Part shown: positions 3,701 through 33,645 of the stretch, in pieces | Position numbering within the stretch: position 1 is the stretch's first letter | Layout of the letters: each line of letters begins with the position of its first letter | IMG/VR virus record: IMGVR_UViG_3300034198_002565 | Span: 1-33,645 of that record | Direction: 5' to 3' (one strand) | DNA length: 33,645 bases | From: a virus | The notes under the pieces: generated by a model | The model's database searches: none | What the model saw: only the letters and a program-made list of their open reading frames with translations | What the model was told of the DNA's origin: nothing | Position numbers and translations under genes: made by a program

Positions 3701-3859
3701 TTATTTCTTAGCCTTGTATGGTTTGGCTGTCTTTGCAGCAGCCTTGAAGTCTTTAGCACTAGGAGCAGCCTTGCTACCTACCTTGTTCATCTTTTCGCCA
3801 GATCCTTCAGCGATTCTCTTGCGCTTTGCATGGATATTGCCGTAGAGACTATTCTTCAT
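3701..3859 (-). CDS. Small basic protein, 'MKNSLYGNIHAKRKRIAEGS' type
   Basis: A 52-residue gene from ATG 3859 to TAA 3701. The first twenty residues, with the Lys/Arg run AKRKR (11-15), resemble a very common short phage protein of unknown function found near terminase or small basic genes. The remainder is Ala/Lys-rich ('APSAKDFKAAAKTAKPYKAKK' split over 32-52). Its start overlaps the end of the upstream Cys-rich gene by 11 nt. Strong positive charge suggests DNA or RNA binding, which is inference only. Confidence 0.7.
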   Translation of the reverse strand: MKNSLYGNIHAKRKRIAEGSGEKMNKVGSKAAPSAKDFKAAAKTAKPYKAKK

Positions 3860-4208
3860 ATTCATCTTCCATTTCATCTTCTTTGGTCATTACTTCAAAT
3901 TCTGAGCAGCCATTCTTTTCTGAACAAGTAAACTCGAACTTGTCGCAGTAACCCATGCCCTTACCCATGCCACAAGTCGGCATATCTTTAGATGGGCAGA
4001 AATACTCACAATCCATGCACTTTGCTACTGGCTTGTCTGTGTAGTTAGCAATCACTATCGCTTTGCGCTTGTTGCCATCATTAATTACTTTGTCTTGTGT
4101 TGCTAATGGACAAGCAGAGACATCACTCTCAAGAAGTCCACCCTCTTTTTTACCAGCCATCTTAGGCTTATCACCTAGTAGACCTACCATGATTGTTGTC
4201 TTGTCCAT
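3849..4208 (-). CDS. Cys-rich putative zinc-binding protein, first gene of late operon
   Basis: 119 residues from ATG 4208, chosen because AGGA lies 7-8 nt upstream. Longer in-frame versions would have to translate through the terminator hairpin at 4219-4244. Residues 1-60 include 'TTIMVGLLGDKPKMAGKKEGG'-type Lys/Gly-rich sequence and 'ACPLATQDKV'. Residues 64-101 hold seven cysteines: CMDC (64-67), then C71, C79, C88, C95 and C101. They could hold one or two zinc ions. The tail is very acidic (EDEMEDEYEE). I do not recognise the family. As the first gene after the presumed late promoter and terminator, it may be the first late protein made. Confidence 0.72.
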   Translation of the reverse strand: MDKTTIMVGLLGDKPKMAGKKEGGLLESDVSACPLATQDKVINDGNKRKAIVIANYTDKPVAKCMDCEYFCPSKDMPTCGMGKGMGYCDKFEFTCSEKNGCSEFEVMTKEDEMEDEYEE

Positions 4209-4218
4209 GAAAATTCCT

Positions 4219-4244
4219 AAAAAAAAGCCCAATTTAATGGGCTT
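4219..4244 (-). terminator. Intrinsic terminator before the late operon
   Basis: On the minus strand AAGCCCA pairs with TGGGCTT (7 bp) around a TTAAAT loop, followed by an uninterrupted run of eight T (two of them in the stem end). The next gene's AGGA follows at once, with its ATG 11 nt after the run. It would stop leftward transcripts leaving the early operon and those from a promoter-like site at 4308-4336 unless antiterminated. Confidence 0.8.
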
Positions 4245-4307
4245 AAATCTCTGTGAAGGAGAAAAATGAAAAAAATCAGGAAACTTTAGATACATTTTCC
4301 CAAGGCA

Positions 4308-4336
4308 ATCTTACTACATTTTTAGAAAAGCAACAA
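4308..4336 (-). promoter_or_regulatory. Candidate late promoter (pR'-like), leftward
   Basis: On the minus strand TTGTTG (4336-4331), 17 bases, then TAAGAT (4313-4308) give a moderate sigma70 match with ideal spacing. Transcription would start near 4301 and run about 80 nt to the terminator at 4219-4244. It lies in the gap after the Q-like and zinc-ribbon genes. Promoter calls in A/T-rich DNA are weak alone; position is the main support. Confidence 0.45.
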
Positions 4337-4341
4337 CTTTT

Positions 4342-4524
4342 TTATCTATGGTTTCTTTTTTCATAACAATGGCAGCAAAACCACTTTTGCCTAAACTCAC
4401 CTACCATGACAAAGTTACCTGTATGCTTTGGCTTTTTAACTCTGCAATTATCGCAGTACCTTGTCTCTTGATAGCTTCCTGTTAAGCTCTTTGTTAATTC
4501 TTGTTCTGGCTTCTTGTAGGTCAT
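4342..4524 (-). CDS. Small zinc-ribbon protein overlapping the Q-like gene
   Basis: 60 residues with two cysteine knuckles: C24-x-x-C27 ('YCDNCR') and C50-C-H-C53 ('FCCHCY'), 22 residues apart. This is a classic zinc-ribbon layout. It overlaps the 3' end of the preceding gene by 77 nt in another frame, which is long for this genome. The paired CxxC motifs make chance unlikely, although the true start could lie downstream. Its 3' end lies just before the candidate late promoter, so it may work with the antiterminator or in transcription, but that is inferred from position only. No strong ribosome-binding site is visible (ACTAGAGA before ATG). Confidence 0.6.
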   Translation of the reverse strand: MTYKKPEQELTKSLTGSYQETRYCDNCRVKKPKHTGNFVMVGEFRQKWFCCHCYEKRNHR

Positions 4525-4837
4525 TCTCTAGTTTCTTTACATTAATTCTAAGGTAGTTAGCGATAGAATGGTTACTCTGGTATGGATGGCTTACATAAAA
4601 TGCCTTTAAAGCCCTTCTATGGTGTTCTGGTAGCTCTTTCATACAAGACTCTACTAGTTCACCATCTTTCCAGTCAATACTCGGCATATCAGGGTAATCT
4701 TCTTCCATGACATTACCTAGCTCTGGATTGTAGTTCTTTTCAAAAGAGCGACAGGTAGAAGGTTGCTTTGGAGATGGATCTTCTAGCCACATAGTGACAT
4801 AGTATGACCAATTAAGAAGCCTCTCATGAATACTCAT
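4448..4837 (-). CDS. Putative Q-type late antiterminator
   Basis: 129 residues. The N-terminus 'SIHERLLNWSYYV' resembles the start of phage 21-type Q proteins. The C-terminal two-thirds has a sigma70 region 4-like helix-turn-helix (about 62-112): acidic start, 'ELPEHHRRALKAFYV' (68-82), 'SIANYLRINVKKLENDL' (91-107), then 'ARTRIN'. This resembles the Phage_antitermQ (PF06530) arrangement, recognised by eye. Q proteins bind near the late promoter and load onto RNA polymerase so that it ignores terminators. The gene is near the end of the early operon, with a promoter-like site and an intrinsic terminator just downstream, as expected. A simple DNA-binding regulator is the alternative. Confidence 0.62.
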   Translation of the reverse strand: MSIHERLLNWSYYVTMWLEDPSPKQPSTCRSFEKNYNPELGNVMEEDYPDMPSIDWKDGELVESCMKELPEHHRRALKAFYVSHPYQSNHSIANYLRINVKKLENDLQEARTRINKELNRKLSRDKVLR

Positions 4838-4839
4838 AT

Positions 4840-5520
4840 TTACCCAAAAAATCTTTCATACAGTTCTGGTCTGTTTTCTTGTATCCATTGCTTTGAGGCA
4901 TCATTACAGGCTTTGTAATCTCTCCCATAAGTCATGCTTCCAACATGATGCACATAAGACCTAGATACATAATGTTTACATCCATTGTTAATCATGTCAA
5001 GACATAGTATATCGTCAGAAAACCAATCTATCGGAACAAGTGGGACATAGGTATCTTTTGAAACTGTATTAAATATTCCTGCTACATAGTCTACTTCTAC
5101 AATCTTAGACTCCCCCTCATAAGCCATGCCGACTAACTCTCCCTGACCATATCTAATATTTTGCCATCCCTTAGCATAGTTAGTTCTTGCAGCTAAAATA
5201 CCTACTTTTTTGCCAACTTGCAATAAAATCTCTAAATCCTCTATCAGTTGTTGGTAGCTATTTGGGTTTAATACGACATCATCAGCACAGGCTACACCAT
5301 AGTCATGGTTCTTGAATACCTCTTGTGTCATAAACTCCCAAGCCTTGCCACCAGTATCATAGGTGTGTTCAAAGTTATGAGTTTTGTGATTTGGCAGCTT
5401 GTAATCTGATCCGCAGATATATATTTCAACATCCTCTGGGACATACAATTCAATAGACTTTAACAAGACTGGTAAAGGTTTACCTGTTTTTGAGCTAATA
5501 AAAATTGGTGGATTTTTCAT
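4840..5520 (-). CDS. GT-A-type glycosyltransferase-like protein (early operon)
   Basis: 226 residues. It has a beta-alpha start 'PPIFISSKTGKPLP', a metal-binding acidic pair 'ACADDVVLNP' (77-86, D80/D81) in place of DxD, a second acidic patch 'WFSDDI' (166-171) and 'YVHHVGSMTYG' (189-199), whose His could complete the metal site. This order fits small phage family 2-like (GT-A) glycosyltransferases. The gene overlaps the upstream HNH gene by ATGA. The product could glucosylate DNA, host surface glycans or virion proteins; the sequence does not say. A second member of this kind lies at 28562-29188. Confidence 0.7.
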   Translation of the reverse strand: MKNPPIFISSKTGKPLPVLLKSIELYVPEDVEIYICGSDYKLPNHKTHNFEHTYDTGGKAWEFMTQEVFKNHDYGVACADDVVLNPNSYQQLIEDLEILLQVGKKVGILAARTNYAKGWQNIRYGQGELVGMAYEGESKIVEVDYVAGIFNTVSKDTYVPLVPIDWFSDDILCLDMINNGCKHYVSRSYVHHVGSMTYGRDYKACNDASKQWIQENRPELYERFFG

Positions 5521-9439: not shown

Positions 9440-9442
9440 GGG

Positions 9443-9458
9443 TAGGGCGAAAGCCCTA
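9443..9458 (+). other. GNRA-capped hairpin between small genes
   Basis: TAGGGC, GAAA, GCCCTA make a perfect 6-bp stem with a stable GAAA tetraloop, starting four bases after the 9293 gene stop. No T-run follows, so it is not a classical terminator. It could be an mRNA stabiliser or processing or pause signal. A similar stem (AGGGCT, TGT, AGCCCT) occurs at 11110-11124 inside a short gene. Confidence 0.5.
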
Positions 9459-9481
9459 TTCATTAAGTTTAAGGAGTTTGT

Positions 9482-29523: not shown

Positions 29524-29550
29524 AAGAAAAGGGGGCAGTTTCCCACCCCC
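29524..29550 (-). terminator. Terminator-like hairpin after the capsid gene
   Basis: On the minus strand GGGGG pairs with CCCCC; two wobble pairs and a G-C extend the stem to 8 bp, closed by a GAAA loop, and TTTTCTT follows. It starts about 16 nt after the capsid stop and ends just before the next gene's GGAG. A partial terminator here would let capsid mRNA exceed tail mRNA, as T7 does after gene 10. Confidence 0.68.
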
Positions 29551-31767: not shown

Positions 31768-33645
31768 AGGACATTCGGTATATTAGCTGTTGGACTTAAC
31801 TTAGCACCGATTTGCATAGCTTTCAATTGGGCTTCATATTCAAACTCTTGTTGCTTGAGAGCCATCTGTTGTTCAAACTTCTCTCGCTCTAACTGCATCT
31901 GAGCTACTGCCTTCTCTCTAGCCAATTGCATCTCTGCTTGAGCCTTCATCTGGTCAGCTTGGATTTGAGCCTGAACTTGAGCCATATAAGCCTGAACCTG
32001 TGGATCTTGTTGCTGTTCTTGTGGTTGAGCCATCATCTGTAGTTGCTCTGGGCTAATCTCTTTGAAGAACTCGGTTGAGTCTTTAAAGCCAGCAGACTCT
32101 ATAAATCTACCCAAAGTATTGCGATACTGTCCTAGGTCTACCAATGGGTTATTAACTCCGATTGTCTTGAGGATTTCTTCTTGCTTACCTAGAACCATAG
32201 CAATCATAGTCATCTGCTCTTGTTTGTTACCTGTTCCAAGACCTACATTGATAGACATATCGAACTGGTTAGTCCACTCTCTAGGATCAATAGAGACATA
32301 TTTGCCTCGTAAGCGAATCACTCTAGCCTTGTCTTGGTACTTGCACAGAAGCTGTAGAATCTTCTGGAACAGGTCTTTTACCCCAGTTTCAGCAAAGATT
32401 CGAGCAATCAATTCAATCCTACCTGCTGCTGCTGATTGCATAGCTGCTACTGCTGTAGCTGTAGTGTTTTGTAGAATGTCTGGGTTTAAGCCTTGTTGAG
32501 CATCATTTACACCAGTTCGCTTAGTCTGAACTACATCTAAATACTCAAGCAATGGGAATGACTGTGCAGCAGTTGCCGGTACTGTCAAAGGAACAATTGC
32601 ATTAGGGTTCTTAATGCGAACCACTCCATTAGCTGTAACGGTTAGCAAGTCATCTAGGTTTACTTGACCTTCAACAACACCCATTCTAGGGCTGTTAGTC
32701 ATATACATATTGTCTAGAATCTGTCTTGTAACAGTAGACTTAATCAACTGAATGTCCATTGAACGGTCTGCCAAGCTATGACCAAAGAACTTATGAGGCA
32801 TAGGAATAGGGCAGATTGAGCAGAATGGCACAAAGTCAATCTCTGTATCGTCTAGAATCTCGCTACCTGCATAGACTACCTTGCGGAGTTCTGCAATGCC
32901 ATCTCCATCCATATCGACCTTGAGATAGCACTCATAGACTTCAATATCTTCCATTGCTGGATCGAGTGTGCTGTTGTTTACATCAGGGTTTTCACCATTG
33001 CTGTAGCGAGCAACTCTTTCCTGTGTGTAAGTTAAGTCAGACCAAGATGGTAAGTCCTCAACAATCTTCTTGTTAAAGCCCATGCCAATCAACTCAGAGC
33101 GAGTAATAAGCCTTCTGTGAGCCACAAACGGAGAATCACCAATAGTGCGAGCCTTCTTAGAGATCAAGAACTCCTCTGGTGGGACATTCTCAATAACTAC
33201 CTTGCCTGTCTTGTTTGTCTTTTTGACTGTGACATTGTATGAGAACATTGGAATTACCATACCTGTCATTGGGTCTTGGTAAGAATCTACCTCAATCTGC
33301 TCTTGCTTAGATACCTCAATAGAGTCATCAGACAAAAGCATTGTTAGCTCTTGCTCATTTAGGTCTTGATACTTCTCTTTGGTGACATTTACTACTTCAT
33401 CCCAGTAGACCTTAATAATGCCATTCTTCTGCAACAAGGCATCTTTGAACCAAGTGTGTAGCAAAGATACACCATCATTATCTCGGTTCATTACCCAGTT
33501 CACATACTCTGTAGCCTGTAAAGCCTTTTGCTCATCATCAAATGATCTAGGCTCAAAACGCACCATCTCGTCAGACTGAGTAAAAATCCTTAGTAATTGT
33601 GGCAATGCACCATCAACTACTTCAGCAACTTCACCAGTAACAATC
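31764..33645 (-). CDS. Portal protein, main part (gene continues through window start)
   Basis: The portal reading frame enters from the window end; codons at 33559-33645 are the duplicated closure. With 1-236 the product has 676 residues. Visible features include 'FKDALLQKNGIIKVYWDE' near the start of the stem region, the wing and clip regions, 'ILDNMYMTNSPRMGVVEG' and 'NDAQQGLNPDILQNTTATAV' (typical portal phrases), and a long Gln/Met/Glu-rich C-terminal coiled coil ('AQVQAQIQADQMKAQAEMQL'). This is a podovirus-like portal that anchors DNA packaging and tail assembly. Its stop overlaps the next gene by ATGA. Confidence 0.9.
   Translation of the reverse strand, partial: IVTGEVAEVVDGALPQLLRIFTQSDEMVRFEPRSFDDEQKALQATEYVNWVMNRDNDGVSLLHTWFKDALLQKNGIIKVYWDEVVNVTKEKYQDLNEQELTMLLSDDSIEVSKQEQIEVDSYQDPMTGMVIPMFSYNVTVKKTNKTGKVVIENVPPEEFLISKKARTIGDSPFVAHRRLITRSELIGMGFNKKIVEDLPSWSDLTYTQERVARYSNGENPDVNNSTLDPAMEDIEVYECYLKVDMDGDGIAELRKVVYAGSEILDDTEIDFVPFCSICPIPMPHKFFGHSLADRSMDIQLIKSTVTRQILDNMYMTNSPRMGVVEGQVNLDDLLTVTANGVVRIKNPNAIVPLTVPATAAQSFPLLEYLDVVQTKRTGVNDAQQGLNPDILQNTTATAVAAMQSAAAGRIELIARIFAETGVKDLFQKILQLLCKYQDKARVIRLRGKYVSIDPREWTNQFDMSINVGLGTGNKQEQMTMIAMVLGKQEEILKTIGVNNPLVDLGQYRNTLGRFIESAGFKDSTEFFKEISPEQLQMMAQPQEQQQDPQVQAYMAQVQAQIQADQMKAQAEMQLAREKAVAQMQLEREKFEQQMALKQQEFEYEAQLKAMQIGAKLSPTANIPNVL
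33559..33645. repeat. 87-bp terminal direct repeat, right copy
   Basis: An exact copy of positions 1-87, lying within the portal gene. It proves that the sequence continues from 33558 to 1 and should be counted once; the two copies should not be read as separate loci. Confidence 0.95.

Follow-up and report, generated by a model that had tools for sequence, protein, structure and literature searches.

A probable Q21-type antiterminator and an overlapping zinc-ribbon gene at a putative late switch in a metagenomic phage family

The stretch of DNA analysed here, referred to as the window, is the 33,645-nt virus record IMGVR_UViG_3300034198_002565 (39% GC). Its two ends overlap by 88 bp (1-88 = 33558-33645), so the record is probably a complete, circular map of ~33.6 kb. 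The late genes read leftward, from 4208 through terminase and then across the ends of the record to portal, scaffold, capsid and lysis genes, as far as about 13334. The proteins that were scanned showed no integrase or repressor. A terminator-like hairpin that is readable on both strands (9440-9461) lies between divergent operons. Ahead of the late genes there is a q-like gene, a zinc-ribbon ORF with four cysteines (Cys4), a promoter-like site and a terminator (Table 1), all on the minus strand, as an earlier sequence-only reading of this DNA had described. Their placement also stands, with small corrections to the spacing: the predicted leader measures 83 nt from +1 through the terminator rather than the estimated ~80 nt, and the T-run is 10 nt, not 11 nt, from the ATG of late gene 1 at 4208.

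Table 1. Features of the late-control locus and of the late operon in the window
Feature	Position	Strand	Description or basis
q-like gene	4448..4837	-	ORF, 129 aa; 28 close and 80 listed distant relatives
Cys4 zinc-ribbon ORF	4342..4524	-	60 aa, CDNC-X22-CCHC; overlaps q
Late (pR'-like) promoter, TTGTTG-N17-TAAGAT	4308..4336	-	conserved position
A-tract in spacer (-22 to -18), candidate part of a Q-binding element	4319..4323	-	profile of 62 promoters
Hairpin H1, 5' end of the late RNA (+1 to +24)	4278..4301	-	folding against shuffles
-10-like hexamer TAAAGT (+14 to +19), candidate sigma-dependent pause element	4283..4288	-	family counts
Intrinsic terminator (tR'-like), AAGCCCATTAAATTGGGCTTTTTTTT	4219..4244	-	conservation, covariation
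AGGA, likely ribosome-binding site of late gene 1	4215..4218	-	sequence; adjoins the T-run
First late gene	3849..4208	-	ORF, 119 aa
Second terminator-like hairpin, just past the major capsid gene	29531..29550	- (late strand)	similar hairpin elsewhere

How widely is this arrangement found? Close relatives of the Q-like protein, at 61%–98% identity, are encoded on 28 IMG/VR contigs, and late gene 1 has 47 IMG/VR relatives. A search with late gene 1, and then with distant proteins, gave 171 IMG/VR relatives, 80 of which were retained and read as the distant set. The Q-like protein has no relatives in 84,980 bacterial and archaeal genomes, and none among the INPHARED phage records. A glycosyltransferase-like gene that lies upstream of q in the window (4840-5520) has another place in many distant relatives (e.g., L106, L107, L112 and L121), where it follows the zinc ORF and precedes the late promoter.

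The late promoter consists of TTGTTG (4336-4331), a 17-bp spacer and TAAGAT (4313-4308), with a predicted +1 at 4301. It has 7 of 12 consensus matches, is absent from the promoter scan listing and, by pattern alone, is no better than chance. The same holds for the terminator, since the region has 11 terminator-like sites and shuffled sequences are expected to have 10.9. Such chance-level patterns would suit a reading in which an ordinary end-of-operon terminator lies beside a weak or spurious promoter, with no late control at the locus. Strong conservation of both elements makes this highly improbable, and it is because of conservation across relatives, not pattern, that we accept the two as real. 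The promoter is recognisable in 28 of 28 leaders of the close family, window included, and all 27 close relatives whose sequence is complete have a terminator directly before late gene 1. In the terminator stem, 92.7% of cells are paired and compensatory changes occur; its covariation score is 0.385, compared with 0.137 for shuffles (0 of 500 shuffles score as high). The T-run is followed by AGGA, GGGA or TGGA in close relatives. The close-family DNA alignment combines a conserved promoter, a variable leader, a compensated terminator stem and a late gene 1 that is either the same or replaced. Moreover, promoter and terminator are retained together when genes are inserted upstream of them. In four loci a tRNA-Thr (TGT) gene separates the zinc ORF from the late promoter (L014, 4219-4292; L016, 6494-6567; L019, 3965-4038; L020, 560-633), and six have an HNH gene there (L010, L017, L018, L046, L047 and L048). 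No other observation argues as strongly for a single functional unit of promoter, leader, terminator and late gene as this persistence of the block despite an insertion just upstream.

What else is conserved around the start of the late RNA? The profile of 62 distinct promoters contains the A-tract (1.4–1.7 bits at −22 to −19), the −10, GGG at +1, its dyad partner CCC, and AAAATTT. No clear direct repeat of the kind bound by Q was found between −35 and −10 in these promoters. A −10-like hexamer, defined as A2 plus T6 with at least 4 of 6 matches within +1 to +26, occurs in 55 of the 62 distinct leaders versus 22.8 expected, and in 44 of the 55 it lies at +14 or +15; the leaders are related, so the counts overstate independence. 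An alternative −10-like hexamer in the window is GAAAAT (4299-4294, minus strand).

The first 24 nt of the late RNA can form a hairpin, H1. All 19 distinct leaders of the close family fold here, 14 of them with p ≤ 0.05 against shuffles; the corresponding count for the next 24 nt is 0 of 18. Covariation in the distant set is modest because pairing is mostly retained through G-C to G-U changes. H1 may act as RNA, as a DNA site or as an RNA stability element. A more radical possibility is antitermination by RNA alone, with H1 giving rise to a put-like element that works without a protein. This would fit the observation that a hairpin at +1 is possible in nearly all leaders even though its sequence differs between groups. 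We consider it very unlikely, given that close-family leaders have a single short conserved hairpin besides the terminator, whereas HK022 put is a two-stem RNA that binds the zinc-binding domain of the polymerase (PMC9378689). Furthermore, an Rfam search gave no match, the window's own H1 is weak (p = 0.18), and the constant q gene would be left unexplained. Attenuation by a leader peptide was rejected, as no ATG-started frame is retained across the relatives' leaders.

The 129-residue protein had been described as Q-like, with an HMM search against PF06530 suggested as a check. This check fails: the match is 12.9 bits (E 0.11) against a curated cut-off of 26 bits, and the best value among relatives is E 0.027. 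The protein falls outside PF06530 by sequence, and its link to Q is therefore structural. The commonest Pfam match is Sigma-70 region 4 (18 of 49 family members, E ≤ 0.1), and 5 of 20 match PHROG 79, “anti-termination protein Q-like.” Profile comparison with hhalign gave no significant match to eight phage proteins, mostly annotated as Q, or to E. coli QuuD, alone or together with other phage Q proteins, and a sequence search of solved structures recovered no Q.

A first structure model, built from 16 close sequences, was poor (pLDDT 53) and was replaced by one from a 49-sequence alignment (pLDDT 77.1, pTM 0.66). The latter has helices at residues 3-18 (H1), 32-35 (H2), 56-66 (H3), 71-83 (H4), 89-96 (H5) and 100-128 (H6). 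Confidence is low over much of residues 20-48, the counterpart of the flexible loops that flank H2 in 21Q. Published 21Q has six helices, with a short H2 within flexible loops and with H3–H6 resembling sigma region 4 (PMC6606751). A Foldseek search of the PDB with the model was headed by sigma region 4 chains, and none of the E-values was significant (Q21, 6p1c, E 0.67). When Foldseek's own candidates were aligned with VIA-align, Q21 chains took ranks 1–4 and 7 and were aligned across residues 1-129, and sigma region 4 chains mostly matched only residues ~54-123. The Q21 chains have Z scores of 10.8 (6p18_Q, 112 residues aligned), 10.1 (6jny_B), 9.7 (6p1b_A) and 9.6 (6p1a_C), although a Z near 10 is possible among unrelated helical proteins. 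This ranking, together with the published resemblance of 21Q H3–H6 to sigma region 4 (PMC6606751), supports a predicted Q21-type fold, with an N-terminal helix, loops that include a short H2, and a sigma region 4-like H3–H6. A predicted fold alone is no proof of function.

In our view, the protein is likely to be a distant antiterminator of the Q21 type that acts at a pR'/tR'-like late switch. The Q/pR'/tR' logic proposed from the sequence has thus gained support from conservation, from the predicted fold and from the conserved −10-like pause sequence. Specifically, the early leftward operon would encode both the Q-like protein and the zinc-ribbon protein, the latter read in the overlapping frame. 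RNA polymerase would start at 4301 and, as long as Q is absent, halt at the terminator (4244-4219). The Q-like protein would bind the late promoter through its sigma region 4-like C-terminal half, and load onto a polymerase held by sigma at the early-transcribed −10-like sequence. Its N-terminal helix and loops would then narrow the RNA exit channel like a nozzle, such that terminator hairpins are barred and the late operon is transcribed by read-through.

Could the protein instead promote initiation? As an activator of the late promoter, or a substitute for sigma region 4, it would compensate for a poor −35, and the terminator would merely end the early operon. The fold and the Pfam matches are shared with sigma region 4, the close-family −35 is the non-consensus TTGTTG, and some distant relatives retain q and the promoter without a terminator, all of which would be expected of an activator. 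We nevertheless regard activation as unlikely. Because a terminator sits downstream of the promoter, and does so in every close relative, activation alone would yield only an 83-nt RNA. In addition, the full-length structural match is to Q21, N-terminal helix and short H2 included, the −10-like pause sequence is conserved, and many distant promoters have a perfect TATAAT.

The antitermination reading was originally extended to the suggestion that late expression needs antitermination. This fits the window phage and its close relatives, and it does not carry over to the whole family, in which the promoter-proximal terminator is optional: about half of the distinct distant leaders retain q, the zinc ORF and the promoter without an immediate terminator. 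Of 48 distinct distant rows, a script scored 25 as having a terminator immediately ahead of late gene 1, and in a few of the rows scored negative the downstream gene is not the late gene; one further terminator, with a short loop, was identified by eye in L127. On a tree of 49 proteins, at least four changes between having and lacking the terminator are needed. The loci without an immediate terminator that were checked have no perfect-stem terminator within the next 2–3 kb. A hairpin on the late strand, 8–9 kb in, similar to the one past the capsid gene of the window, is also present in L207, L209, L210, L211 and L212, three of which lack tR'. Neither this second terminator nor the hairpin at +1 featured in the sequence-only reading.

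The zinc ORF, a constant overlapping companion of q, appears from comparative sequence analysis to be the main new feature of the locus. In the window, the overlap is 77 nt, q stop included, and a Cys4 ORF overlaps the end of q at 109 of 109 loci (the window, 28 close and 80 retained distant relatives). In the close family, the part of the zinc ORF that lies beyond the overlap is under purifying selection (dN/dS 0.06 pooled, 0.16 median pairwise; q, 0.10 and 0.06), with synonymous sites near saturation in these estimates and the distant-set value for the zinc ORF unreliable. Family scans gave scattered weak zinc-ribbon matches, including the anti-sigma proteins Gin and Fin, that do not discriminate between families. 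A programmed frameshift from q into the zinc ORF was rejected; separate initiation is simpler because the zinc ORF retains its own ATG even when displaced. A literature search for a Q–zinc protein pair found none. We tentatively suggest, as a possible but doubtful role, that the Q complex has the zinc protein as a second, obligate subunit, which would be made from a frame overlapping q and would correspond, in split form, to the built-in finger of lambda Q. The +1 hairpin would emerge at the downstream pause and aid loading, for example by blocking backtracking.

Which known systems does the locus resemble? The order q–promoter–terminator–late genes is that of lambda Q/pR'/tR', and in both a zinc-binding motif is associated with the system. 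The lambda leader is longer than the 83 nt of the window, and the fold of lambda Q differs from that predicted here. In lambda the zinc finger lies within Q (PMC9371919), whereas in the window family the motif is in a separate overlapping ORF that has no significant hhalign match to lambda Q; the spacing of 22 residues between the CxxC pairs is alike. The resemblance to phage 21 Q and its pR'21/tR'21 region (PMC6606751) includes the six-helix plan, the early-transcribed −10-like sequence and, for the window phage, a terminator placed between the late promoter and the late genes. Unlike phage 21, the window family has a pause-like hexamer that lies farther from the start site (+14/15), lacks recognisable direct repeats of the kind found in the phage 21 binding element, and has an overlapping zinc-ribbon gene and a hairpin at +1; there is no significant sequence match between the two proteins. 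AlpA of Pseudomonas aeruginosa and GafZ of Caulobacter, compared here by description, are likewise small antiterminators that bind DNA and do not belong to the classic families of Q sequences; AlpA relies on a −10-like pause with a terminator a short way downstream, and GafZ is predicted to carry a sigma-like HTH (PMC7969949, PMC11150451). In contrast to the phage protein, both are host-encoded and have other targets, and the accessible portions of these two sources report no overlapping zinc ORF (PMC7969949, PMC11150451). The Methylophilales phage Venkman has a portal protein 51% identical to that of the window, and its gp37 is annotated “antitermination-like” and matches PF06530 weakly (E 0.0086). 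However, the gp37 gene is in another, oppositely oriented cluster, and gp37 is at most a candidate homologue of the Q-like protein of the window.

What would such a switch imply? First, the range of Q21-type antitermination, described in phages and prophages whose hosts are cultured, would be extended to a large family found here only in metagenomic contigs. Second, the constant q–zinc overlap makes a two-protein antitermination complex directly testable. Third, natural variants could separate the functions of promoter, pause, hairpin and terminator.

Some loci of the family carry further features. The inserted HNH genes share one insertion place and a hairpin leader, AAAGCCCT...AGGGCTTT, with a compensated pair change in L018. 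They also share a CTAAACA.AACAACT-like sequence and a GGAGTTGATATG start region. The q gene of L018 looks recombinant: its N-terminus resembles that of the window's group, and its C-terminus and promoter resemble those of the L042/L049 group. The late gene of L018 resembles that of L015/L043.
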